Positions 29,565 to 41,289 of a DNA stretch of 64,000 nucleotides are shown here, piece after piece. Under the pieces are notes generated by a model that worked only from the letters and a program-made list of their open reading frames with translations, was not told the origin of the DNA and ran no database searches. The stretch is from NCBI RefSeq assembly GCF_032921865.1, contig NZ_CP136684.1, positions 4,502,501 through 4,566,500 on the forward strand, in the 5' to 3' direction. The DNA comes from Thalassospira lucentensis (GTDB taxonomy: Bacteria > Pseudomonadota > Alphaproteobacteria > Rhodospirillales > Thalassospiraceae). The first letter of the stretch is position 1. Each line of letters starts with the position of its first letter. The position numbers and the translations under genes are program-made.

Positions 29565-30761
29565 CTATTCCCCGACACCGGCAAAGCTGCGCATGTCGAA
29601 TATGCTGTTATCCAGAAACGCATCCGGGCCGACAAACGCCCGGTCCGCGGCATCATTCACGCCCTCAACCCGCCAGTCATCATGCGGAAGCGCAACATCA
29701 AGCCCCTTGACCGCACGGCGATAAAGGTCGGGTCGGTATATGTCGGATATAAGCGTATTGAAATCGACGGTGGCATCCACCTGTCCCCACCGCTGCATCT
29801 GCGTGCCGACCCACGCCCCCTGCGACAGCCACGGGAACGTCGCGGTATAGCGATAAAACACATGGCGATCGGGTGCCTCAATCGGATTGTCCCCGGGTTT
29901 CAGAACCGGTCGGCCAAGCAACGATGCCCGCAGAATATCAAACGATGCGCCGACATGGTTTTCACCAGACAGCAATTGCGCCAGTTCGGTGCGATTTTCC
30001 GGCTGATCGGCCCATTCCGCCGACCGGACAAGCGCACGCACCAGTGCATCCACCGTATCGGGATTGGACTGCACCCAGTCTTCGCGCACGCCAAGAACCT
30101 TTTCCGGGCTGCGCGCCCAGATATCTTCCTTAAGCGCGACAATCACCCCGTCCCCATGGAACACCGCCCGCTGGTTCCACGGCTCCCCCACGCAATAGCC
30201 ATCAACCCAGCCATTGCGCAGACTGTCAAACATCCGTGGTGGCGCAATCACGCCAATATTGACGTCCTTATCGGGATCGATACCGCCCGCCGCCATCCAG
30301 TAACGCAGTTCGTAATTATGGCTTGAATACGGGAATACGGTCGCAAAGGACATGATCGGACGACCGGCCGCCCGGTCCTCGTCGATCACTTTTTTAAGTG
30401 CCCGTGCCGAAAGCCCGCGCGGCCCGTGCATCGCCGCCGGATCCGCTTCAAGCATCCGCTGATAAAGCCGGGTTGAAACCGTAATCGCGTTCCCGCCGCG
30501 CCCCAGCGCCATCGGCACCGCAATGCGCTGCGACGGCATCCCGCCAAGCCCAAGCCGCGCTGCCAGCGGAATACCCGCCAGAAGATGCGCCGCGTCATAA
30601 ACCCCATAAGACAGCTTGTCGCGAATGGCCGCCCAGGACATTTCCCGGATCAGGGTCAGGTCGATATTTTCTTCCTCGGCAAAGCCCTTGGCACGCGCCA
30701 CGACAGGCAGGGCACAATCCACAAGTGGCACAAAGCCAAGTCGAACCTGTTTAAGGGACAT
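29565..30761 (-). CDS. nasS: Nitrate/nitrite sensor NasS (NrtA/CmpA-like, cytoplasmic)
   Basis: A 398-aa NrtA-like binding protein without any signal peptide (starts MSLKQVRLGFVPLVDCALPV), which separates the cytoplasmic sensor NasS from transporter-linked NrtA. In Paracoccus, Azotobacter and Bradyrhizobium, NasS binds and holds the ANTAR protein NasT until nitrate or nitrite releases it. Blocks typical of the family are ANAITVS-like GGNAITVSTRLYQ, MRFDSLRNGWVDGYCVGEPWNQ-like residues near 180-200, and RWGQVDATVDFNTLI near the C-terminus. It starts 3 nt after the nasT stop, so the two partners are co-expressed. Its target is probably the nirB leader at 33385-33519. Confidence 0.93.
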   Translation of the reverse strand: MSLKQVRLGFVPLVDCALPVVARAKGFAEEENIDLTLIREMSWAAIRDKLSYGVYDAAHLLAGIPLAARLGLGGMPSQRIAVPMALGRGGNAITVSTRLYQRMLEADPAAMHGPRGLSARALKKVIDEDRAAGRPIMSFATVFPYSSHNYELRYWMAAGGIDPDKDVNIGVIAPPRMFDSLRNGWVDGYCVGEPWNQRAVFHGDGVIVALKEDIWARSPEKVLGVREDWVQSNPDTVDALVRALVRSAEWADQPENRTELAQLLSGENHVGASFDILRASLLGRPVLKPGDNPIEAPDRHVFYRYTATFPWLSQGAWVGTQMQRWGQVDATVDFNTLISDIYRPDLYRRAVKGLDVALPHDDWRVEGVNDAADRAFVGPDAFLDNSIFDMRSFAGVGE

Positions 30762-30764
30762 GCA

Positions 30765-31352
30765 TTAGAACTCCAACTGAAAGGCCGTGATCACGCTTTG
30801 CGCGATTTCAGAAATTTTGCGGTTCTGTTTCATGGCGTTTTTGCGCAGCAGGTTATAGGCCTCATCCTCGCTCAGCCCCTTTTCCTGCATCAGAAGTCCT
30901 TTTGCCCGATCAATCAACTTGCGATCATTAAGCTTGGCCTTGGCTTCGTCCCGTTCCCGGCGCAACTGGTCAAACGCGTTGAAACGCGAAATGGCCATTT
31001 CGACGATGGGCCGAATACGATCCTGACGCAAGCCATCAACGACATAGGCACTGACCCCGGCCTCAACCGCCTCGCGGATCGTGTTGCTGTCACTTTGATC
31101 GACAAACATCGCAATCGGGCGCGCAATAACACGCGATACCTGAAACATCTGTTCCAGCGTATCACGGTCCGGGTTTTCAAGATCAATGATGATGATGTCG
31201 GGGGCCAACGCCTGAATGCGTTCGACCAGATTGTATGACGTGCCGATGCGGCTGACGCGGGTATAGCCACTTTCGACAAGGCCGCGCTCGACTATGGCGG
31301 CACGGTCCGGGTTTTCGTCGATCACCAGAATGCTGAAGTCTTCAAGCTTCAT
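30765..31352 (-). CDS. nasT: ANTAR-domain antitermination regulator NasT
   Basis: A 195-aa two-domain regulator: an N-terminal receiver-like domain (about 5-120; FSILVIDENPDRAA, IIIIDLENPDRDTLEQM) and a C-terminal ANTAR RNA-binding domain (about 130-190; LIDRAKGLLMQEKGLSEDEAYNLLRKNAM). When released from NasS it binds tandem hairpins with hexanucleotide loops in leader mRNAs and prevents termination. The window holds such a pair in front of nirB. It is first in the nasT-nasS pair, 118 bp downstream of narK on the same strand. Confidence 0.95.
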   Translation of the reverse strand: MKLEDFSILVIDENPDRAAIVERGLVESGYTRVSRIGTSYNLVERIQALAPDIIIIDLENPDRDTLEQMFQVSRVIARPIAMFVDQSDSNTIREAVEAGVSAYVVDGLRQDRIRPIVEMAISRFNAFDQLRRERDEAKAKLNDRKLIDRAKGLLMQEKGLSEDEAYNLLRKNAMKQNRKISEIAQSVITAFQLEF

Positions 31353-31470: not shown

Positions 31471-32835
31471 TTACTCTGCCGGAACCGCCTGCGCACCGGA
31501 TGGCAGCGCATCGCGTTCCTGCATGGCTTTTTCGAAACGTTCCTTTTCCTCGGCCACGGTCTTTTCCGAGAAACGAACCGCAAGCGCTGCAAAGGAACAG
31601 ATAATCACGGCAATGCCAAGATACATCAGGCCCTGCTGATAGGTCAGCGCTTCGGATTTGAACAGGAAGCCCGCGGCAACCGCCCCGGCATTCCCGCCCG
31701 CACCAACAATACCGGCAACCGAGCCAAGCGCCTTGCGGTTAACAAACGGAACAATCCCGAATGTCGCACCTTCGGACATCTGCACGAAAAGCGAGAAGAC
31801 CACCATCATCGAAACCGCGATGACCAACGCATCCATCATCGAAAACGCAACAAGTGCAACACCTTCGATGAACAGCGCCAGGAACAGGAACTTGACCCGT
31901 CCCGAAAGCCCGCCCTTGGCGGCAAACTTGTCGGAAAATACCCCGCCCAGCGTACGGGCAAAGATGTTCATCAGGCCAAACAGACCGGCAATCAGACCGG
32001 CTGTCTGAAGGCTAAGCTCAAACCGGTCAAAGAAATAGATCGCGGCAATGTTGTTGATCGTAAGCTCGACACCGAAACACGCCCCGTAAACCAGAAACAG
32101 CGCCCAGACCCGGTAATCCTTGGCCGCGGCCAGCATGCCCTTGGTCGCACCGGCATGATCGTCTTCCGGTGACAGGGCACCGCTTTTGCGCATGTCGGCA
32201 TAGTTGCCATCCGGCGCATCGGTGGTGAAGAACCAGTAAAGTGCCGCAACCACCAGCATGATCACACCCGGAAAGACCATCGCCAGACGCCAGCCCATGG
32301 TTTCCGAAACGCCAAAGCCAAGCACCATGGCAAGGATCAGCGGCATGACCATCTGTGTCACACCACCGCCAAGGTTACCCCAGCCCGCCGTAGTCGCATT
32401 TGCGGTACCGACAACGTTCGGCGCAAACATGGTCGAGGTATGATACTGCGTGATCACGAACGATGCCCCGATCGAACCGATGGCAAGACGCGCCAGCAGG
32501 AATGTTTCATAGCTGTCGGCAAGCCCGATCAGCATGACCGGCAAAGACCCCAGAACCAGCAACGCCGTATAGGTCTTGCGCGGGCCGATTTTATCGCAAA
32601 GCGGCCCGATCAGAAGGCGCACAAGAACGGTAATCGCGACAGACGCGATGATGGTATTGCCGATTTCACCCTTGGTCAGGCCAAGATCATCGCGCACAAG
32701 CGGCATCAGCGGCGCAATGCCGAACCAGCCAAAGAAACACAGGAAGAACGCAAGCCAGGTCAGGTGGAAAGTCCGCATCTGGACAGTCTTGAGACTGAAG
32801 AGATTGATCCGCGGAGCCTTGTTTTTGATTTCCAT
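31471..32835 (-). CDS. narK: NarK/NasA-type nitrate/nitrite MFS transporter
   Basis: A major-facilitator carrier that brings nitrate into the cytoplasm for assimilation. ATG 32835 is chosen because it gives the family N-terminus (MEIKNKAPRINLFSLKTVQMR); the 47 upstream in-frame residues lack support. The 454-aa product has about 12 transmembrane helices, a nitrate signature-like AGWGNLGGGVTQMVMP in helix 5 (about 150-165) and GNAGAVAAGFLFK in helix 11. No nrtABC-type ABC nitrate importer is in the window, so this is the likely uptake route. It diverges from nirB across a 720-bp region with a sigma-54-like promoter for each side. Confidence 0.94.
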   Translation of the reverse strand: MEIKNKAPRINLFSLKTVQMRTFHLTWLAFFLCFFGWFGIAPLMPLVRDDLGLTKGEIGNTIIASVAITVLVRLLIGPLCDKIGPRKTYTALLVLGSLPVMLIGLADSYETFLLARLAIGSIGASFVITQYHTSTMFAPNVVGTANATTAGWGNLGGGVTQMVMPLILAMVLGFGVSETMGWRLAMVFPGVIMLVVAALYWFFTTDAPDGNYADMRKSGALSPEDDHAGATKGMLAAAKDYRVWALFLVYGACFGVELTINNIAAIYFFDRFELSLQTAGLIAGLFGLMNIFARTLGGVFSDKFAAKGGLSGRVKFLFLALFIEGVALVAFSMMDALVIAVSMMVVFSLFVQMSEGATFGIVPFVNRKALGSVAGIVGAGGNAGAVAAGFLFKSEALTYQQGLMYLGIAVIICSFAALAVRFSEKTVAEEKERFEKAMQERDALPSGAQAVPAE

Positions 32836-33034
32836 AACAATGAAGCCCTTCGTTTGGGTCACTCCGAACCGGTTTCCCGGTTGTCGCGACCGACGGTTAT
32901 TTCCCCAAGGGCCGCACGCTTCATCAGATGGATTCCGCTGGCGGCCCGTCATTCGTTTCGACTGCGGCTGCGCCATCGTTGCGCGCCAAAATCAAACGTC
33001 TGATCGCCCGCCATTGGACGAAGAACTGTAAGTC

Positions 33035-33048
33035 ACCCGTCATTGGGC
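33035..33048 (-). ncRNA. Possible ANTAR-type hairpin in the narK leader
   Basis: On the minus-strand transcript, GCCC-AATGAC-GGGT forms a 4-bp stem (one G-U) with a hexaloop that has A at position 1 and G at position 4, as in NasT targets. It is about 25 nt into the predicted narK leader. A clear second hexaloop and a T-tract terminator were not found, so this is weaker than the nirB leader. Confidence 0.3.
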
Positions 33049-33084
33049 CTGCTTCCGTCGAAGCGGCTCACACGAAACAAGTTG

Positions 33085-33100
33085 TGCAAACCGCGCGCCA
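33085..33100 (-). promoter_or_regulatory. Sigma-54-like promoter for narK
   Basis: On the minus strand, TGGCGC-GCGGT-TTGCA matches the -24/-12 consensus TGGCAC-N5-TTGCA with one mismatch. It implies a start near 33072 and a leader of about 235 nt before narK. Confidence 0.6.
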
Positions 33101-33351
33101 ATTTTTTCGCAACGCGGAAATTTTCAAATAATTCCCTGAAATTCAATACAATTTATCCACCGCAACTGCACAGACGAAAAACTCACCCCGCCTGAAAGCA
33201 GCATACTTGCACATTTTTTAATCTCATCATTTTGCGTGTGGTTATTTTTTAAACAATCACAGGTTTCATGCAATTTTTGCTTATCCCGCAGACATCAAAA
33301 ATCTTATTTTAAATCAGTATTTTGCAAGTTTTTCGGCGCAATCTGCAGTTC

Positions 33352-33367
33352 TGGCACGCAACTTGTA
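33352..33367 (+). promoter_or_regulatory. Sigma-54-like promoter for nirB-nirD-nasA
   Basis: TGGCAC-GCAAC-TTGTA (33352-33367) matches the -24/-12 consensus except T for C in the -12 element. It implies a transcript start near 33377, 8 nt before the first leader hairpin. NtrC control of nitrate assimilation is well established; I did not find convincing NtrC sites by eye. Confidence 0.6.
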
Positions 33368-33384
33368 TAGTAAGGGGCAAGAGC

Positions 33385-33402
33385 GCGGGCAAGGTCGCCT
33401 GC
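33385..33402 (+). ncRNA. ANTAR target hairpin P1 in the nirB leader
   Basis: GCGGGC-AAGGTC-GCCTGC forms a 6-bp stem (one G-U pair) with the hexaloop AAGGTC, having A1 and G4 as required for ANTAR-protein recognition. Confidence 0.7.
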
Positions 33403-33454
33403 TGCCGCGGCAGAAATGCCAAACCCCTATATAGAATCCAATGGCGGGTTCACC

Positions 33455-33470
33455 CGGATAACGACGTCCG
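33455..33470 (+). ncRNA. ANTAR target hairpin P2 in the nirB leader
   Basis: CGGAT-AACGAC-GTCCG forms a 5-bp stem (T-G closing pair) with the hexaloop AACGAC, again A1 and G4. Its 3' arm (33466-33470) is shared with the 5' arm of the following terminator, so P2 and the terminator exclude each other. Confidence 0.7.
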
Positions 33471-33519
33471 TTGCGAGATTGCCTTTTTGACAGGCAGTGC
33501 GCACCGGGCGTTTTTTTTT
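33465..33519 (+). terminator. Regulated leader terminator upstream of nirB
   Basis: CGTCCGTTGCG (33465-33475) pairs with CGCACCGGGCG (33500-33510) over 11 positions with one mismatch and one G-U, and nine Ts follow at 33511-33519. It stands 36 nt before the nirB ATG inside the leader, so it must be overcome for expression. Overlap with P2 gives a NasT-dependent antitermination switch. Confidence 0.75.
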
Positions 33520-33555
33520 GCCAATTCGCTTCCCGCGATCAGGAGCCAGAGACAA

Positions 33556-36024
33556 ATGAACCACGTCCCTGCAGCACTTACCAAGAAACCCCGCCTTGTC
33601 GTCATCGGCAACGGCATGGCCGGCATGCGCACCGTCGAGGAAATCCTCGGTCGCGCCCCTGACAAATACGAAATCACCGTTTTCGGGGCCGAGCCACGCG
33701 TGAACTATAACCGCATCATGCTATCCCCGCTTCTGTCGGGCGAAAAGGAATTCGACGATATCGTCATCAACACCGCCGAATGGTATCAGGAAAACCGCAT
33801 CCATCTGTTTTCCGGCGATCCGGTGATTGAAATCGACCGCACCCGCAAGGTCGTCATCTCCAGAAGCGGCACCGAAACCGCCTATGACCAGCTTCTGCTG
33901 GCCACCGGTTCCGACCCGATCATGATCCCGGTCCCCGGCCACAAGCTTTCGGGCGTTGTCACCTTCCGCGATGTCGATGATGTCGATACCATGCTGAAAA
34001 CCGCGGCGAATGGCGGCCCTGCTGTCGTCATCGGTGGCGGTCTTCTGGGTCTTGAGGCCGCCGTCGGCCTGCAGGCGCGTGGCATGTCGGTCACGGTCCT
34101 GCATCTGGCGGGCCATGTGATGGAACGCCAGCTTGATCCGTCGGCCGGTTACCTTCTCGCGCAGGAACTTGGCCGTCGGGGCATCAATGTCATTACCGAG
34201 GCCGACACCGCCGAAATCGTCGGCACCGATTGCGTAACCGGCGTCCGGCTTAAGGACGGGCGCATGATCCCGGCTGATCTGGTGGTCATGGCTGTTGGCA
34301 TCCGCCCCAACGGGCGCCTTGCCGCAGACGCGGGACTGACCGTCGAACGCGGCATTGTCGTTGACGATGTCATGACCACCAGTGATCCGGATATCTTTGC
34401 CGTTGGCGAATGCGTGCAGCATCGCGGCCAGTGCTATGGCCTTGTTGCACCGCTGTTTGAAATGGCAAAATCCTGTGCCGATCATCTGGCCGAAATCGCA
34501 ACCAATGGCTATGCCGGTTCGGTCACCTCGACCAAACTGAAAGTCACCGGGGTCGATGTTTTTTCCGCCGGTGATTTTTCCGGCGGTGGCGAAACCGAAG
34601 AAATCGTCTTCCGCGATGCCGGACGCGGCGTTTACAAACGCATCGTTCTGGAAGACGGCAGGATCAAGGGTGCCGTCCTTTATGGCGATACATCCGATGG
34701 CGGCTGGTATTTCCAGCTGATGAAAGATGCTCAGGACGTGACCGAGCTTCGCGATACCCTTGCCTTTGGCCAAGCCTTTGCCGGAGGATCCGCCGGAAAC
34801 CCTCTTGATGCCGTTGCCGCCCTGCCAGACGACGCAGAGATTTGTGGCTGCAACGGCATTTGCAAGGGAACCATCGTTTCCGCCATCACCGAAAAGGGCC
34901 TGACAACGCTTGACGAAGTCAAAGGCCACACCAAGGCATCCGCATCCTGTGGTTCATGCAGCGGCCTTGTCGAAAACCTTCTGGCGGCAACCCTTGGCGG
35001 TGATTATCAGGCGGCTGCGGTCAAACCGATCTGCACCTGTACCGATCATGACCATGACAATGTCCGTCGCCTGATCAAGGCCAAGGAACTGAAATCCATG
35101 CCTGCCGTCATGCAGGAACTGGAATGGAAATCATCGGACGGCTGCCATGTCTGCCGCCCGGCGCTGAACTATTACCTGCTCGCCGCATGGCCGGGTGAAT
35201 ATGCCGATCATGGTGCGTCGCGCTTCATTAATGAACGCGTCCATGCCAACATTCAGAAAGACGGCACCTATTCGGTGGTGCCGCGCATGTGGGGTGGCCT
35301 GACCAACCCGCGCGAATTGCGCGCCATTGCCGATGTCGCCGACAAATTCAATATCCCGACCGTTAAGGTCACCGGCGGGCAGCGCATTGACCTTCTGGGT
35401 GTAAAAAAAGAAGACCTGCCTGCCGTCTGGGCCGATCTGAATGCGGCCGGGATGGTTTCGGGGCACGCCTATGGCAAGTCCCTTCGCACGGTCAAAAGCT
35501 GTGTCGGACAGGAATGGTGCCGCTTTGGCACCCAGATGTCGATGAGCATGGCCGTCGACCTTGAAAAAATGACCTGGGGTTCGTGGATGCCCCACAAATT
35601 CAAGATGGCAGTATCAGGTTGTCCGCGTAACTGCGCCGAAGCCACGATCAAGGATTTTGGCGTTGTCGCAACCGATGGCGGCTGGGACCTTCATGTCGGC
35701 GGCAATGGCGGCATTCATGTCCGTGCGACCGAACTTCTGTGCAAGGTCACAACCGATCAGGAAGTAAAAGAATATTGCGGTGCCTTCATCCAGCTTTACC
35801 GCGAAGAAGCCCGCTATCTGGAACGCACCGCACCGTGGATCGAACGTGTTGGCCTGAAACATGTTCAGGAACGTGTGGTCGATGATGCCAAAAATCGCGC
35901 CGCCCTGTTTGAACGTTTCATGGAAAGCCAGAAAACGGCGCAGGTCGATCCGTGGGCCGAACGCGCCAGCCAGGGCGTGGATGCGCACGAATTCAAATCC
36001 CTTTCCCTGATCGCAGCGGAGTAA
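33556..36024 (+). CDS. nirB: Assimilatory nitrite reductase [NAD(P)H], large subunit
   Basis: Reduces nitrite to ammonium with six electrons in the cytoplasm. ATG 33556 (AGGAG at 33541-33545) gives 822 aa, normal for NirB; upstream in-frame sequence is the regulatory leader. In order: an FAD/NAD-binding pyridine-nucleotide reductase domain (about 10-320; VVIGNGMAGMRTVEEI and GGGLLGLEAAVGLQ), two BFD-like [2Fe-2S] regions (CGCNGICKG...SCGSC at about 433-475, then CTCTDHDHDNV), and the siroheme-[4Fe-4S] reductase domain (from about 540) with cysteines in SCVGQEWC (about 649-655) and CPRNC (about 689-693). It is followed by nirD with a 5-nt gap. Confidence 0.97.
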   Translation: MNHVPAALTKKPRLVVIGNGMAGMRTVEEILGRAPDKYEITVFGAEPRVNYNRIMLSPLLSGEKEFDDIVINTAEWYQENRIHLFSGDPVIEIDRTRKVVISRSGTETAYDQLLLATGSDPIMIPVPGHKLSGVVTFRDVDDVDTMLKTAANGGPAVVIGGGLLGLEAAVGLQARGMSVTVLHLAGHVMERQLDPSAGYLLAQELGRRGINVITEADTAEIVGTDCVTGVRLKDGRMIPADLVVMAVGIRPNGRLAADAGLTVERGIVVDDVMTTSDPDIFAVGECVQHRGQCYGLVAPLFEMAKSCADHLAEIATNGYAGSVTSTKLKVTGVDVFSAGDFSGGGETEEIVFRDAGRGVYKRIVLEDGRIKGAVLYGDTSDGGWYFQLMKDAQDVTELRDTLAFGQAFAGGSAGNPLDAVAALPDDAEICGCNGICKGTIVSAITEKGLTTLDEVKGHTKASASCGSCSGLVENLLAATLGGDYQAAAVKPICTCTDHDHDNVRRLIKAKELKSMPAVMQELEWKSSDGCHVCRPALNYYLLAAWPGEYADHGASRFINERVHANIQKDGTYSVVPRMWGGLTNPRELRAIADVADKFNIPTVKVTGGQRIDLLGVKKEDLPAVWADLNAAGMVSGHAYGKSLRTVKSCVGQEWCRFGTQMSMSMAVDLEKMTWGSWMPHKFKMAVSGCPRNCAEATIKDFGVVATDGGWDLHVGGNGGIHVRATELLCKVTTDQEVKEYCGAFIQLYREEARYLERTAPWIERVGLKHVQERVVDDAKNRAALFERFMESQKTAQVDPWAERASQGVDAHEFKSLSLIAAE

Positions 36025-36029
36025 CGGCA

Positions 36030-36380
36030 ATGACGGATATCGTAAACTGGGTAAATGTCGGACCGGTCGCCAATATCCCGCTTCAGGGGGCCCGCACCTT
36101 TCAGACCGAAACTGATCGCATCGCGATTTTCAGAACCCTTGATGATCAGGTCTATGCCCTTCTGGATCGCTGCCCGCACAAGGACGGGCCGCTGGCACAG
36201 GGGATCGTGCATGGTCATTTCGTCACCTGCCCGCTGCATAACATGGTCTTTTCGCTTGAAACCGGCGAGGCACAGGGCCCCGATGACGGCTGTGCGGCCA
36301 AGGTGGAACTGCGCGTCATTGACGGCACGGTTCATATCGGCCTGACGGCGGAACAAATCGGTCTGCGCCATGCGGGGTGA
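36030..36380 (+). CDS. nirD: Assimilatory nitrite reductase, small (Rieske-type) subunit
   Basis: The 116-aa small subunit of NirBD. ATG 36030 lies 5 nt after the nirB stop; the longer in-frame reading from 35952 lies inside nirB. Unlike many NirD proteins that have lost the cluster, the Rieske ligands are all present: C48-x-H50 (RCPHKDGPLAQG) and C67-x2-H70 (TCPLHNMVF), so a [2Fe-2S] cluster is expected. It overlaps nasA by 11 bp, which supports co-translation. Confidence 0.93.
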   Translation: MTDIVNWVNVGPVANIPLQGARTFQTETDRIAIFRTLDDQVYALLDRCPHKDGPLAQGIVHGHFVTCPLHNMVFSLETGEAQGPDDGCAAKVELRVIDGTVHIGLTAEQIGLRHAG

Positions 36381-39105
36381 GGTTAAAACCACCTGTCCTT
36401 ATTGCGGTGTTGGCTGCGGCCTGATCGTCTCCCCCACCCGGGACGGCTGGGCGGTCGGGGGCGACCCCGATCACCCGGCCAACCGGGGCCGGTTATGCTC
36501 AAAGGGTGCCGCCCTGATCGATACGATCACCGCCGAGATGAAGCGCGATTTCCGCCTGCTGAAACCCGAAATCGACGGCAAAACCGTCGACTGGCCGACA
36601 GCAACACAGGAAACCGCGGATCGCCTGCGCGCGACCATTCAGAAACACGGCCCGAAATCGGTGGCGTTCTATGTTTCCGGTCAGTTATTGACCGAGGACT
36701 ATTATATCGCCAACAAGCTGATCAAGGGCTTCATCGGGTCGCCGCATATCGATACCAATTCCCGGCTTTGCATGGCATCAACCGTGGTCGGGCATAAACG
36801 TGCCTTTGGTGCCGATGTTGTACCGGGATGTTACGAAGACCTGGAAATTGCCGATCTGGTCGTTCTGACCGGATCGAACCTGGCATGGTGCCATCCGGTC
36901 CTGAACCAGCGTTTGCGCGCAGCCAGGGAAAAGCACGGCACCAAAATCGTCGTGATCGATCCGCGCAAAACCGCAAGCTGCGACATCGCCGATCTGCACC
37001 TGCCAATCAAACCGGGCAGCGACGTTGCCCTGTTTAACGGCCTGCTGGCATGGCTTGACCAGAACGGTCATTGCGACCTTCAATATGTCGCCCGCCATGT
37101 CAGCGGCTATGAAACCGCCATCGCCGAGGCGCGCGCGGACTGCCCCGATATCGAGAGTACAGCAAAAAAATGCGGCCTCGATTATCCTTCCGAGATCAGC
37201 GCGTACGCCGATCATGACGGCTCGGGTCTGGGGAAACTGGAAACGTTCTTTAACTGGTTTGCCGCCTTTGACCGCACGGTCACCGTGTTTTCGCAAGGTG
37301 TCAACCAGTCCAGCAGCGGCTCTGACAAGGTCAATGCGATCATCAATACCCATCTGGCGACCGGACGGGTCGGCAAACCGGGTTCAAGCCCGTTTTCCGT
37401 CACAGGCCAGCCAAACGCCATGGGCGGACGCGAGGTCGGCGGCCTTGCCAACCAGCTTGCCGCCCATATGGACCCGAACGATGTTAACGACGTTGACCGG
37501 GTCCGCCGGTTCTGGAAATCCGATATTCTGGAACCGGGCGAGGGATACAAGGCGGTTGATATGTTCCGCGCCATCGAACGCGGTGAAATCAAGGCCGTCT
37601 GGGTCATGGCAACCAACCCTGCCGTCAGCCTGCCCGATGCGGACCGCGTCCGTCTTGCCCTGTCGCGCTGCCCGCTTGTCATCGTGTCCGACACGGTGAA
37701 CGATACCGACACGCTGCGTTATGCCCATATCAAACTTCCCGCTGCCGGGTGGGCCGAAAAATCCGGCACGGTCACCAATTCCGAACGCCGCATTTCCCGC
37801 CAACGCCCGTTCCGCGAACTACAGGGTGACGCCAAACCCGACTGGTGGATCATGACGCAGGTCGCACGCGCCATGGGATATGGCAAGGCGTTCAAATACC
37901 GCGATCCTGCCGATATTTTCGCCGAACATGCCGCCCTGTCGGAATTTGAAAATGACGGCATGCGCGCCTTTGATATCGGCCAGTGGCACAAGGCAAAGAA
38001 ATCGACCTATGACGCCATGGAACCCTTCCAATGGCCCGCATCGCGCAAACATCAACCCGCTGGCGGAGCCGAACGCCTGTATGGCAATGGCATTTTCACC
38101 ACCTCAAACGGGCGGGCCCGTATGCTGGCGGTCGCGCATAAACTGCCCATGTCGCAACCCGGCAAGGAATTCCCGCTGATCGCCAATAGCGGCCGGTATC
38201 GCGACCAATGGCACACCATGACCCGTACTGGCACCGCCGCGCGCCTTTCGGCCCATCGGCCCGAACCGCTGCTCGAAGTCAATATCCTTGATGCCAAGCG
38301 TTACAAGCTGACCGATGGCGGCCTTGCCCGGATCAGAAGCAAACGCGGCACCGCATTGATGCGCGTGTCTGTATCAGACGCCCAGATGCCCGGCGAAGTC
38401 TTCATGCCGATGCACTGGAACGATGTTTATTCATCGGCGGGCGGTATCGGGCGTTTGCCAACCGCCCATGTTGATCCCTATTCCGGACAACCGGAAACCA
38501 AACATATCCCGGTTTCCATCGAACCGTTTGAACCGCTGTGGCAGGGATTGCTGTTTTCCAACACGCCGGTTGATCTTTCAGACCTGCCCTATTGGGTGGC
38601 GGCAACCGGCCCCGGCTGCATGATTTATGAAATCGCCGGTGACAGACCCTGCCTGTTCAAATCCATGCTGCCGATGGCGACGAACAATATTGGTGATGAA
38701 AACGCCATCGAACACATCATTGAATATAACGACGGCAAAAAAGGCGTTCATCGCTATGCCCGCCTGAATGGCGACCGCATCACGGGTGCACTTTTTGTCG
38801 GCCCGGATCGCCCAACCCTTGGCCGGGACTGGATATCGGCACTGCTTGGCAATGATGCGATCAGCGGCCCGGAACGCAATGCCCTGCTTGCCGGGCGTAT
38901 GCCCGATGCCGGGGCCATCAATGATCGTTTGATCTGTTCGTGCTTCTCGGTCGGGCTGGCGGCCATCACACGCGCCATCCATGACCAGAATGCGGTCAGC
39001 ACCGCCGATATCGGTCGCCTGTTGCAAGCCGGAACCGGATGCGGCTCCTGCCTGCCCGAACTCAAGGAGATTCTTGATGACGCATTACCGCGCGCCGCAG
39101 AATAA
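36370..39105 (+). CDS. nasA: Assimilatory nitrate reductase, catalytic subunit
   Basis: A cytoplasmic molybdenum bis-MGD enzyme that reduces nitrate to nitrite for nitrogen assimilation. The 911-aa protein begins with the [4Fe-4S] motif C9-x2-C12-x3-C16...C43 (TTCPYCGVGCG, GRLCSKGA), followed by the molybdopterin oxidoreductase body and dinucleotide-binding domain (about 610-720; NSGRYRDQWHTMTRTGTA). A C-terminal extension (about 760-911) ends in a BFD-like [2Fe-2S] domain (ICSCFSVGLAAI, GTGCGSCLPELKEIL), which marks the NasA type with built-in electron-transfer domain. No Tat signal is present. It starts within the 3' end of nirD, and the siroheme gene starts within its own 3' end. Confidence 0.96.
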   Translation: MRGEVKTTCPYCGVGCGLIVSPTRDGWAVGGDPDHPANRGRLCSKGAALIDTITAEMKRDFRLLKPEIDGKTVDWPTATQETADRLRATIQKHGPKSVAFYVSGQLLTEDYYIANKLIKGFIGSPHIDTNSRLCMASTVVGHKRAFGADVVPGCYEDLEIADLVVLTGSNLAWCHPVLNQRLRAAREKHGTKIVVIDPRKTASCDIADLHLPIKPGSDVALFNGLLAWLDQNGHCDLQYVARHVSGYETAIAEARADCPDIESTAKKCGLDYPSEISAYADHDGSGLGKLETFFNWFAAFDRTVTVFSQGVNQSSSGSDKVNAIINTHLATGRVGKPGSSPFSVTGQPNAMGGREVGGLANQLAAHMDPNDVNDVDRVRRFWKSDILEPGEGYKAVDMFRAIERGEIKAVWVMATNPAVSLPDADRVRLALSRCPLVIVSDTVNDTDTLRYAHIKLPAAGWAEKSGTVTNSERRISRQRPFRELQGDAKPDWWIMTQVARAMGYGKAFKYRDPADIFAEHAALSEFENDGMRAFDIGQWHKAKKSTYDAMEPFQWPASRKHQPAGGAERLYGNGIFTTSNGRARMLAVAHKLPMSQPGKEFPLIANSGRYRDQWHTMTRTGTAARLSAHRPEPLLEVNILDAKRYKLTDGGLARIRSKRGTALMRVSVSDAQMPGEVFMPMHWNDVYSSAGGIGRLPTAHVDPYSGQPETKHIPVSIEPFEPLWQGLLFSNTPVDLSDLPYWVAATGPGCMIYEIAGDRPCLFKSMLPMATNNIGDENAIEHIIEYNDGKKGVHRYARLNGDRITGALFVGPDRPTLGRDWISALLGNDAISGPERNALLAGRMPDAGAINDRLICSCFSVGLAAITRAIHDQNAVSTADIGRLLQAGTGCGSCLPELKEILDDALPRAAE

Positions 39106-40096
39106 GCAGCAGTATAAACCGGCCAAACCCGAAAACCTGTATGGCCCTGAAACGGAAAACCGGGAAACCTTCCCCTTCTTTCCGGCCTTCGTCCATGTCA
39201 CCGGCAAAAAGGTCGTCGTGCTGGGCGGGGGTGAGGTCGCGGCGGGCAAACTCCTCCTTTTGCTGCGCAGTCAGGCCGATATTACCGTCATCGCCCCGGA
39301 ACTGTGCACCGACATCGCAACGATGGTCGATACCGGCGCGATCCGTTGGGAAGCAGCCCCGTTTGTCGATACCATGCTAAATGGCGCGGTGATGATCTTT
39401 GACGCCGCCGATGACATGCACATGACCCGCCGGGTCAAGATCGCGGCCAAACGGCGCAACATCCTTTTGAATGTCGTCGACAAGACCGAACATTGCGATT
39501 TCATCGTCCCTGCAATCCTTGACCGGGCACCGGTGATGGTCACGATCTCGACGGGCGGCTGCGCCCCGGCACTGGCCCGCATCATCCGCCAACGCCTTGA
39601 AACCACCCTGCCCGCCTCGATGTCACAATTGGCAAGCCTCGCCCGCAGCGCACGCCGTCGCGTTGCCGCCCACCTGCCCGACAATGTCGCAAGACAGCGG
39701 TTCTGGACACATTTTTTCCAGAACGGTTTGCAGGACACCCACCTGACGCAAAGCACCCCGCAGGACCTTGACGCCGCCCTGACCCGCTTCGTCCCCGAAG
39801 GCAGTTCCGCCACCGTTCCGGGCGGCCAGATCCTGCATGCTGATGTCACGGCCGACAATGCCTTTGACCTTGCCCATGGCATTGCACGCGCGATTGAAAC
39901 ATCCGACATCATCTTCCACATGCCCGGCATAGCACCCGACATTCTGGGCCTCGCCCGCCGCGACGCCACCGTGATCGAACTCGAAAGCACCGGCGATGAT
40001 GGAAACATCGATGACGACGCCCGCGAACGCCTGAAACACCAGGCCGCCTTTTTCGCCCGGCAAGGCAGCAATATCACCTGCCTGTATCGAAACTAA
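39077..40096 (+). CDS. Siroheme synthase-like protein: precorrin-2 dehydrogenase (CysG N-terminal/SirC type) with truncated methyltransferase remnant
   Basis: Supplies siroheme for NirB. ATG 39077 follows AAGGAG by about 7 nt and overlaps the end of nasA; the product is 339 aa. After a polar 30-residue N-tail, residues about 35-240 match the CysG-A/Met8 domain: NAD-binding VVVLGGGEVAAGK (46-58), FDAADD with the catalytic Asp (108-113), and VTISTGGCAPALARIIR (155-171). Residues 249-339 resemble the first 90 residues of the SUMT methyltransferase domain (RAIETSDIIFHMPGIAPDILGLARRDA compares with [23 protein letters not shown] in E. coli CysG), but the GAGPGD loop is lost and the protein ends just before GGDPF. 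It should therefore oxidise and chelate but not methylate. A separate uroporphyrinogen methyltransferase must exist elsewhere. Confidence 0.9.
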   Translation: MTHYRAPQNKQQYKPAKPENLYGPETENRETFPFFPAFVHVTGKKVVVLGGGEVAAGKLLLLLRSQADITVIAPELCTDIATMVDTGAIRWEAAPFVDTMLNGAVMIFDAADDMHMTRRVKIAAKRRNILLNVVDKTEHCDFIVPAILDRAPVMVTISTGGCAPALARIIRQRLETTLPASMSQLASLARSARRRVAAHLPDNVARQRFWTHFFQNGLQDTHLTQSTPQDLDAALTRFVPEGSSATVPGGQILHADVTADNAFDLAHGIARAIETSDIIFHMPGIAPDILGLARRDATVIELESTGDDGNIDDDARERLKHQAAFFARQGSNITCLYRN

Positions 40097-41289
40097 CGCT
40101 TCAAAAACCGGGCCAGTCCGTCCATCGCCTTGTGAATGCGGTCTTCCGATACCGCGTAACAGGCACGGATATGGCCTGCCCCCTCTGGCCCGAATGCCTC
40201 GCCGGGCGCAAGGCCGATGCCCTCGGACAGCAAAAGATCCTTGGCAAAGGAAAGCGTATCCTCAACCCCATCAACCCGGAAAAACGCATAGAATGCGCCG
40301 TCTGCTTCGGGCAGGTGGATGCGGTTCATGTCGCGCAACCGTTCGATGATTGCTGCACGTGCACGGCTATATCTGGCGCGCGAGCCCGCAACAAATTCCT
40401 CGCCTTCCTCAAGCGCTACAATCCCCGCCTGCTGAATGAACCCCGCCGGGCAGGACACATTGAATTCCATCAGCTTTTCAAGTTCACTGCCAACCCCCTT
40501 GGGTGCAGTGATCCAACCCAACCGCCAGCCGGTCATCGCCCAGCTTTTGGAAAAGCTGTTGATCACCATGATCCGCGTATCGTCGCTGACATAGGGCACA
40601 AATGACGGGGCCACGTCCGATCCGTCATAGATCAGGCGCGCATAAACCTCATCCGCGATCAACCAAATGCCTCGTTCAGTGGCAAATTCGACCAGCTTTT
40701 TCTGGTCCTCCGCGGGCATGACCCAACCGGTCGGATTATTCGGCGAATTGATCAGTATGGCGCGCGTATCGGGCGCACAGGCGGCAATGAATTCATCAAT
40801 ATCAAGCTGCCAGCCATCATTCCCGGACCGCAACGGCACGGTTGTCACCTGCGCACCCAGAACCTTTGGCATGGCAACAATGTTGGGCCAGATTGGGGCT
40901 GTGGTCACCATCCTGTCGCCCGCCTTCAGGATCGACTGCATCGCAATCATCAGGGCATTTAGCCCCGATACCGTCACGGTGATGTTTTGACGATCAAGTG
41001 CCGTGCCATAAAGACGATTGCCATAAACCGCCAGCGCATCGCGAAGCGGCGTGATCCCCCGGTTGGGCTGATAAAAAGTATCGCCCGCCTCAAGGGCCGA
41101 AATCGCCGCCTTGCGAATGAATTCCGGGGTCGGCTGATCGGGTTCGCCAAACCATAGCGGCACGATATTTTCGCGTCCCATACCCAGATGGGCAACCTCG
41201 CGGATCAGCGACGCGCCAATGTCACGCACGTCATGTCGAATGCCGTTTGCAGCAAACGGGGAAACAGGCTGGGCATCTGAAACGGACAT
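40093..41289 (-). CDS. PLP-dependent class I/II aminotransferase (aspartate-aminotransferase-like)
   Basis: A 398-aa fold-type I aminotransferase. Visible are NPTG at 185-188 (SPNNPTGWV), the DEVYARLIYDG block at about 213-223 with the Asp that contacts the PLP ring, and the Schiff-base lysine K248 in NSFSKSWAMTGWRLGW, which also carries the phosphate-binding Arg. The set fits the Ibeta/Igamma group that includes aspartate, aromatic and arginine:pyruvate aminotransferases. The stop codons of this gene and of the siroheme gene overlap head-on (40093-40096), so there is no room for a separate terminator. The substrate is not determinable here. Confidence 0.88.
   Translation of the reverse strand: MSVSDAQPVSPFAANGIRHDVRDIGASLIREVAHLGMGRENIVPLWFGEPDQPTPEFIRKAAISALEAGDTFYQPNRGITPLRDALAVYGNRLYGTALDRQNITVTVSGLNALMIAMQSILKAGDRMVTTAPIWPNIVAMPKVLGAQVTTVPLRSGNDGWQLDIDEFIAACAPDTRAILINSPNNPTGWVMPAEDQKKLVEFATERGIWLIADEVYARLIYDGSDVAPSFVPYVSDDTRIMVINSFSKSWAMTGWRLGWITAPKGVGSELEKLMEFNVSCPAGFIQQAGIVALEEGEEFVAGSRARYSRARAAIIERLRDMNRIHLPEADGAFYAFFRVDGVEDTLSFAKDLLLSEGIGLAPGEAFGPEGAGHIRACYAVSEDRIHKAMDGLARFLKR

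Follow-up and report, generated by a model that had tools for sequence, protein, structure and literature searches.

Two gene sets run apart from each other in the window, the 64-kb stretch of DNA of the marine bacterium Thalassospira lucentensis analysed here: nirB-nirD-nitrate reductase-cysG on the plus strand and narK-nasT-nasS on the minus strand. The interval between the narK and nirB start codons (32836-33555) holds the leaders of both. The gene for the nitrite reductase large subunit, nirB (33556..36024, plus strand), matched TIGR02374 at 966 bits, and nirD (36024..36380, plus strand) matched TIGR02378 at 84.2 bits, each above the cut-off of the model; over NirB residues 1-200, the nearest named loci were those of Thalassospira sp. 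MCCC 1A03138 (100% identity) and T. lucentensis MCCC 1A02072 (99%). The third open reading frame (36370..39105, plus strand) encodes a molybdopterin oxidoreductase (Pfam Molybdopterin, 228.6 bits, plus a BFD-like domain) that the NCBIfam NasC and Fdh-alpha models both matched below cut-off and that we took, from its gene neighbours, to be the assimilatory nitrate reductase. The fourth (38981..40096, plus strand) encodes a siroheme synthase of the CysG N-terminal type; its TIGR01470 match (201.6 bits) begins at residue 67, and the true start probably lies further inside this frame.

The regulators NasT and NasS, which a sequence-only reading of the window had placed 2-4 kb from the nirB leader, are encoded at a distance of 2.0-3.8 kb. 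The product of nasT (30765..31352, minus strand) is a response-regulator ANTAR protein (PF03861, ANTAR, 76.2 bits; PF00072, Response_reg, 40.9 bits) and gave the single ANTAR match in its own genome (4.73 Mb, 2 contigs). The solved sequence closest to it was 6wsh/6ww6 (E 1.6e-22), which is EutV (PMC8934654). Next to it, nasS (29565..30761, minus strand) encodes an NrtA-like, binding-protein-type nitrate/nitrite sensor (PF13379, NMT1_2, 259.9 bits), and a receiver-ANTAR protein adjoined by such a sensor is the gene arrangement of NasS-NasT systems. The first gene of the divergent set is a narK-type nitrate/nitrite transporter (31471..32835, minus strand), which scored 308.5 bits against TIGR00886, just below the cut-off of 311.7. 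Its open reading frame opens at 32976, and because several homologues aligned only from residue 48 onward, the true start is probably 32835; a start at 32976 would run through part of the narK leader.

The nirB leader and its terminator

Upstream of nirB we found a sigma54 (-24/-12) promoter-like element, TGGCACGCAACTTGT (33352..33366, plus strand), which is the sole exact match to TGGCACN5TTGY in the window. With one mismatch allowed, this pattern was no commoner than chance would have it (11 matches in the window versus 10.97 expected). Another sigma54-like element with one mismatch, TGGCACGGCACTTGA (40994-41008, minus strand), lies inside an aminotransferase gene and is probably there by chance. 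From the usual spacing of -24/-12 promoters, we infer that the 5' end of the nirB RNA lies near 33378, about 8 nt before the first hairpin of the leader.

That hairpin, P0 (gcgggc-AAGGTC-gcctgc, 33385..33402, plus strand; loop 33391-33396), has the lowest predicted energy among the leader's small hairpins (-11.1 kcal/mol). It is followed on the same strand by a spacer hairpin (ggca-gaaa-tgcc, 33409..33420; -5.9 kcal/mol, z -4.26), by P1 (gaatcc-AATGGC-gggttc, 33434..33451; -5.6 kcal/mol, z -2.83) and by the putative antiterminator hairpin P2 (cggat-AACGAC-gtccg, 33455..33470, loop 33460-33465; -4.4 kcal/mol, z -1.71). P0, P1 and P2 all carry A1/G4 hexaloops, so that the leader has three of them, rather than the 'exactly two' of the published dual-hexaloop criterion. 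The sequence-only reading had seen the switch as complete with two hairpins, those with the loops AAGGTC and AACGAC. Both are in the sequence, as are the other parts it named, but it missed the sigma54-type promoter and overlooked the P1 hexaloop, 3 nt from P2, and its pairing of P0 with P2 probably needs amending.

Several measures bear on how these hairpins might work together. The loop-closing pair is C:G in P0 and P1 and U-G in P2, so two of the three share the C:G closing pair that SELEX with NasR selected together with A1 and G4 (PMC7496416). The linker between P1 and P2 is 3 nt long and that between P0 and P2 is 52 nt, compared with 5-12 nt in the Enterococcus faecalis eut leaders, where induction suffered when the linker was cut to 3 nt (PMC3369931). 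More generally, linkers of 3 or 14 nt, or with 20 nt added, impair the action of EutV, and long linkers abolish its effect (PMC3369931, PMC8934654). P1 therefore comes nearer to this spacing rule than P0, even if 3 nt is still below the range, and is the likely partner of P2. The whole leader folded better than its shuffled versions (z -2.84, with 1 of 200 shuffles equally good). The predicted folds of 33375-33525 and 33378-33470 kept P0 and swapped P1 for another helix, which speaks against P1. At the gathering score, Rfam gave no matches in the 64-kb window. With a relaxed threshold, a full-length match to Atu_L1, a small RNA of Rhizobiales, appeared between the two promoters (33159-33328, minus strand) at 30 bits, compared with a gathering score of 60.

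Downstream of the hexaloops, an intrinsic terminator stem-loop (33464..33511, plus strand; -25.7 kcal/mol, z -4.58) leads into a tract of nine Ts (33511..33519, plus strand), as the sequence-only reading had described. Its 5' arm (33464-33475, ACGTCCGTTGCG) and 3' arm (33500-33511) are paired at 11 of 12 positions. The 5' arm begins at loop position 5 of P2 and takes in the entire 3' arm of P2, so the sharing of these two arms, also part of that reading, is borne out. P2 and the terminator thus exclude each other, both in sequence and in predicted energy. With the terminator predicted at -25.7 kcal/mol and P2 at -4.4 kcal/mol, the RNA by itself should favour termination, and keeping it in the other state would take a protein. 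A promoter and terminator scan of the window listed four terminators, and the one in the nirB leader was not among them, probably because the criteria of the scan are unsuited to a stem with internal mismatches.

Related leaders and their hexaloops

We searched for relatives with a covariance model, R1, built from P1 and P2 only on 12 sequences, whose E-values are rough. In its own genome the model gave one strong site, the nirB leader (61 bits, E 8e-12); the next match (G000:C2:392678, 20.6 bits) was antisense within an ABC-transporter gene and was rejected. At E <= 0.01, the model matched 41 of 317 genomes in the order (the 11 weakest gave no locus and were not inspected) and 10 of 398 in the phylum, of which three showed no leader; in the class it matched 8 of 385 genomes at E <= 0.001. 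A family elsewhere in the phylum, f222, gave matches in 4 of 99 genomes at E <= 0.05, and a search of 63 of the 80 NirB-related loci gave 22 matches at E <= 1. The matches L127, L129 and L130 (E 0.005 to 0.01) showed no leader of this kind in their surroundings and were set aside. Among the 29 genomes of the genus, NasT was present in 23 and the leader in the identical 23, and the remaining six had neither. Where NasT is missing, the entire nas cluster may be gone, so that this co-occurrence is as much that of the cluster as of the leader.

From 49 matches of the model, one was dropped for Ns (L099), and the 48 distinct ones were reduced to 24 leaders with distinct sequences in the 80 nt ahead of P1. 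This set leaves out matches below 20 bits (10 of the 22 from NirB-related loci) and the four f222 matches (L126, L128, L141 and L142). We found a hexaloop hairpin of the R1/G4 class (loops that begin with a purine, R1, and have G as their fourth base), with at least 5 pairs and at most one mismatch, within the 80 nt before P1 in 23 of the 24, compared with 4.75 on average and never more than 11 in 300 shuffles. When 6 or more pairs were required, such a hairpin was present in 18 of the 24 (shuffles: mean 2.4, maximum 7). In L122 the counted match is the spacer hairpin and P0 has only 4 pairs, as it does in L117, the one miss; P0 proper with at least 5 pairs is therefore present in 22 of the 24. 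R1/G4 was the only one of the four loop classes to be clearly enriched upstream of P1 (30 hairpins versus 5.6 expected); the other three came to 4, 14 and 7 versus 5.2, 11.9 and 12.6. In the place of the spacer hairpin, several long-spaced relatives have, on reading, hairpins of other sequence.

For the 24 chosen P0 hairpins, which include the 4-pair P0 of L122, G4 was a condition of selection. Among the features that were not selected, the first loop base is A in 22 hairpins and not G, as in the other 2, and the closing pair is C:G in 23. The stems of P0 showed 38 double-changed cells; shuffles gave 12.5 (sd 2.7) and slid controls no more than 14. Since the P0 hairpins were picked for pairing, the shuffle count of upstream hexaloops is a stricter test than this covariation. 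Pairs 3-6 of P1 also change on both sides among the 24 leaders. P0 and P1 are thus conserved, with base pairing backed by covariation, the point on which the sequence-only reading had said that its proposal could fail; P2 is nearly invariant in the relatives, gave little covariation evidence and is too conserved to judge. The closing pair is C:G in 22 leaders for P1 and in 8 for P2, with U-G in the remainder, and some hexaloops of the relatives have G at loop position 1. Loop-to-loop distances range from 25 to 51 for P0-P1 and from 19 to 25 for P1-P2 across the 24 leaders.

The conservation of P0 also bears on what it is for. Its stability and its place about 8 nt from the inferred 5' end would suit a hairpin that stabilises the RNA or helps promoter escape and is no NasT site, leaving P1 and P2 alone as the switch, and leaders that lack P0 exist (0 of 4 in f222). 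A stabiliser needs no R1/G4 loop, however, and yet only that class was clearly enriched; moreover, the C:G closing pair (23 of 24) and A1 (22 of 24) were kept while the stems and the other loop positions of P0 vary across the leaders. We consider a purely stabilising P0 quite unlikely.

The overlap between P2 and the terminator was likewise kept. A helix of at least 9 pairs running from the loop or 3' arm of P2 to a T-rich tail was found in 22 of the 24 leaders, compared with a mean of 1.03 and a maximum of 4 when the downstream sequence was shuffled. With at least 6 pairs and the same anchoring in P2, it was found in all 24 (shuffled downstream sequence: mean 8.9, maximum 14), and it begins at loop position 5 of P2 in 21. 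The terminator is strong on its own, as would be expected if it were a plain constitutive attenuator, or the end of an upstream transcript, free of NasT control. It lies, however, between the sigma54-like promoter and nirB; the nearest plus-strand open reading frames of at least 100 aa (ending at 33003 and 33031) are antisense over narK and unlikely to be genes; and the leader co-occurs with NasT and has its hexaloop-terminator overlap far more often than shuffled sequence does. Control without NasT is hardly credible on these data. We conclude that the window leader is almost certainly a NasT antitermination leader, which is a known kind. The hexaloops, the terminator overlap, the co-occurrence with NasT and the covariation of P0 and P1 all support the original assignment of an ANTAR (NasT) leader to nirB.

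The number of hexaloops varies. An automatic count over 91 sources (the window, L001-L080 and L131-L140) called three hexaloops in 39 sources and two in 30; 4 had a single one, 1 had four, and in 17 no leader was found. This count is approximate, with a wrong P2 in L016, L031, L037, L059 and L076, for example, and doubtful leaders such as L055, L057, L138 and L140. In the four f222 leaders, which stand outside the 24-leader set (E 0.0026 to 0.015), P0 was absent from all; three had two hexaloops, and one was detected in the fourth. Each f222 leader, with its terminator, is immediately upstream of a nasS-like gene, and in three of these loci a nasT-like gene comes next (33-39% identity). This position suggests that NasT controls its own synthesis there.

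Ten plasmid loci were inspected, some of them searched without annotation. A Niveispirillum locus has three hexaloops before nirB, whereas those of Methylocella and Sulfitobacter have two and that of Phyllobacterium has one. In Rhizobium rhizogenes the script found one hexaloop and reading added a second with 3 pairs, and in Sphingomonas it found two and reading a third, also of 3 pairs. Two Paracoccus leaders apparently have two on reading, without a run of five Ts. The Sinorhizobium meliloti and Acinetobacter plasmid loci gave nothing useful, perhaps because the position of the leader was guessed. Overall, the 5'-end and middle hexaloops are each present or absent among relatives, and P2 with its terminator is constant in the leaders found with the model. 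No single set of three is universal, because the f222, Burkholderiaceae, Rhizobium, Methylocella and Paracoccus leaders differ.

P0 and P2, the two hairpins of the sequence-only reading, might alone form the functional pair, joined by a structured linker, with P1 incidental. Several Ralstonia, Paraburkholderia and Caballeronia leaders, examined by script and by reading, have P0 and P2 hexaloops with none detected between them; the minimum-free-energy fold of 33378-33470 lacks P1; and P0 keeps a near-constant distance from the promoter, with a sigma54-like element (loose pattern) 34-45 nt upstream of its loop in 21 of the 24 leaders. A 52-nt linker, however, is far beyond the EutV rule. The double changes in pairs 3-6 of P1 also speak against it, as does the C:G pair that closes the P1 loop in 22 of the 24 (the R1 and G4 of P1 were conditions of the script, and the model itself was built on P1 and P2). 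We regard a P0-P2 pair as unlikely. The reading that we favour, and consider probable, is a nitrate-responsive NasT antitermination leader in which P2 is the antiterminator and P0 and P1 are the sites that recruit for it.

A model of NasT action and the narK leader

The order of the operon (nirB, nirD, a third gene, a siroheme gene) is like that of nirBD-PA1779-cobA in Pseudomonas aeruginosa, where we take PA1779 to be the nitrate reductase, and of the P. putida system that depends on NalA (NasT). Romeo 2012, going by its title, reportedly deals with this kind of control in Pseudomonas. A review calls the Pseudomonas nirBD leader sigma54-driven and NasT-dependent (PMC12830290), and in both respects the P. 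aeruginosa leader is like the one proposed here. In Klebsiella oxytoca, the nasF leader shares the A1/G4 hexaloops, the C:G closing pair, the terminator overlap and the nitrate signal (PMC3369936, PMC7496416), but it has two hairpins, and NasR is one protein with a NIT domain in place of NasS plus NasT. NasR binding takes about 1 uM when two hairpins are present and about 12 uM with a single one (PMC7496416). In Paracoccus denitrificans, nitrate makes NasS and NasT separate, after which NasT binds the nasA leader (PMC3795266), whose hairpin HI is needed in vivo (PMC3795266, PMC5424462); that leader differs in having two named hairpins, HI and HII. The eut leaders of Enterococcus faecalis share the hexaloops, the second of which overlaps the terminator, and are served by EutV, the solved sequence nearest to the window NasT, but they are phosphorylation-driven, with two hexaloops and linkers of 5-12 nt (PMC8934654). 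EutV dimers touch one hexaloop at a time, with the first hairpin recruiting and the second antiterminating (PMC8934654).

By analogy with these relatives, the binding of NasT, the nitrate signal, readthrough and a recruiting role of P0 can be fitted into one scheme. Nitrogen limitation, probably through NtrC and sigma54, would start transcription near 33378. When nitrate is lacking, NasS would hold NasT, the RNA would fold into the terminator (33464-33511) and the polymerase would stop at the U tract. Nitrate or nitrite would make NasS free NasT, whose dimers would then dock on the hexaloops as they emerge, beginning with P0 at the 5' end of the RNA and going on to P1 and P2, such that P0 and P1 would be two recruiting sites for P2. 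With P2 held, the 5' arm of the terminator would be occupied, and nirBD, the nitrate reductase gene and cysG would be transcribed.

The switch itself is known; what seems new is that it has three putative docking hairpins, versus the textbook two, as many related leaders do. We found no printed three-hexaloop leader in the open-licence literature, which left out the primary Pseudomonas NasT papers and the supplements of PMC3369931. In the available parts of the sources, the descriptions were of two hairpins only, except for an extra single hexaloop in the EutX RNA (PMC8934654). In many of the proteobacterial nitrate-assimilation leaders that we examined, a third, conserved docking site apparently escapes the two-hexaloop rule by which ANTAR targets are defined and searched for.

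The divergent narK leader (about 33080-32836, minus strand) has hexaloops as well. Before it lies a sigma54-like element with one mismatch, TGGCGCGCGGTTTGC (33086..33100, minus strand), and a similar one was found in 10 of the 12 sources scanned, the window included. The first hexaloop hairpin (gccc-AATGAC-gggt, 33035..33048, minus strand) has counterparts with changing stems; in 11 aligned sequences, chosen by the motif of the second hairpin, loop position 4 is G in all 11, and the loop begins with A in 6 of them and with G in 5. The second (tcgtcc-AATGGC-gggcga, 33004..33021, minus strand) is conserved, with small changes, in the window and in all 16 loci whose divergent narK has at least 71% identity, and is absent from L032, where narK has 37%. 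No U-tract follows the narK-leader hexaloops. Two further arrangements were tried and rejected. By eye, several loci seemed to allow a mutually exclusive long-range helix, but its duplex energies were mostly no better than with shuffled downstream sequence (z +0.15 in the window, mean z -0.99 over 11 loci, z < -2 only in L012 and L014), and sequestering of the narK ribosome site by sequence before the second hexaloop was seen by eye in some species only and was dropped.

A leader of this kind before narK-nasT-nasS suggests that NasT may feed back on the operon that encodes it. The narK gene of Bradyrhizobium, for which NasT hairpins are predicted, rises in a nasT mutant (PMC6759348). We tentatively propose, at somewhat below an even chance, that many NasT leaders of Alpha- and Betaproteobacteria are three-hexaloop switches, in which the 5' hexaloop would load NasT at once, the second would hand it on and the third would block the terminator, and that NasT also acts on the narK-nasT-nasS mRNA that encodes it, by way of hexaloops with no intrinsic terminator. 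With at least two NasT dimers engaged, the three-hexaloop switches might respond to nitrate more steeply or faster than the two-hexaloop prototypes do. The relatives, with two or three hexaloops and long or short spacing, form a natural series for testing whether ANTAR dimers are handed over, as proposed, from recruiting hairpins to the antiterminator.

Outside Thalassospira, the loci L012, L013, L014 and L017 have a further R1/G4 hexaloop directly after the conserved one of the narK leader, and arrays of three hexaloops may therefore also occur in their narK leaders.
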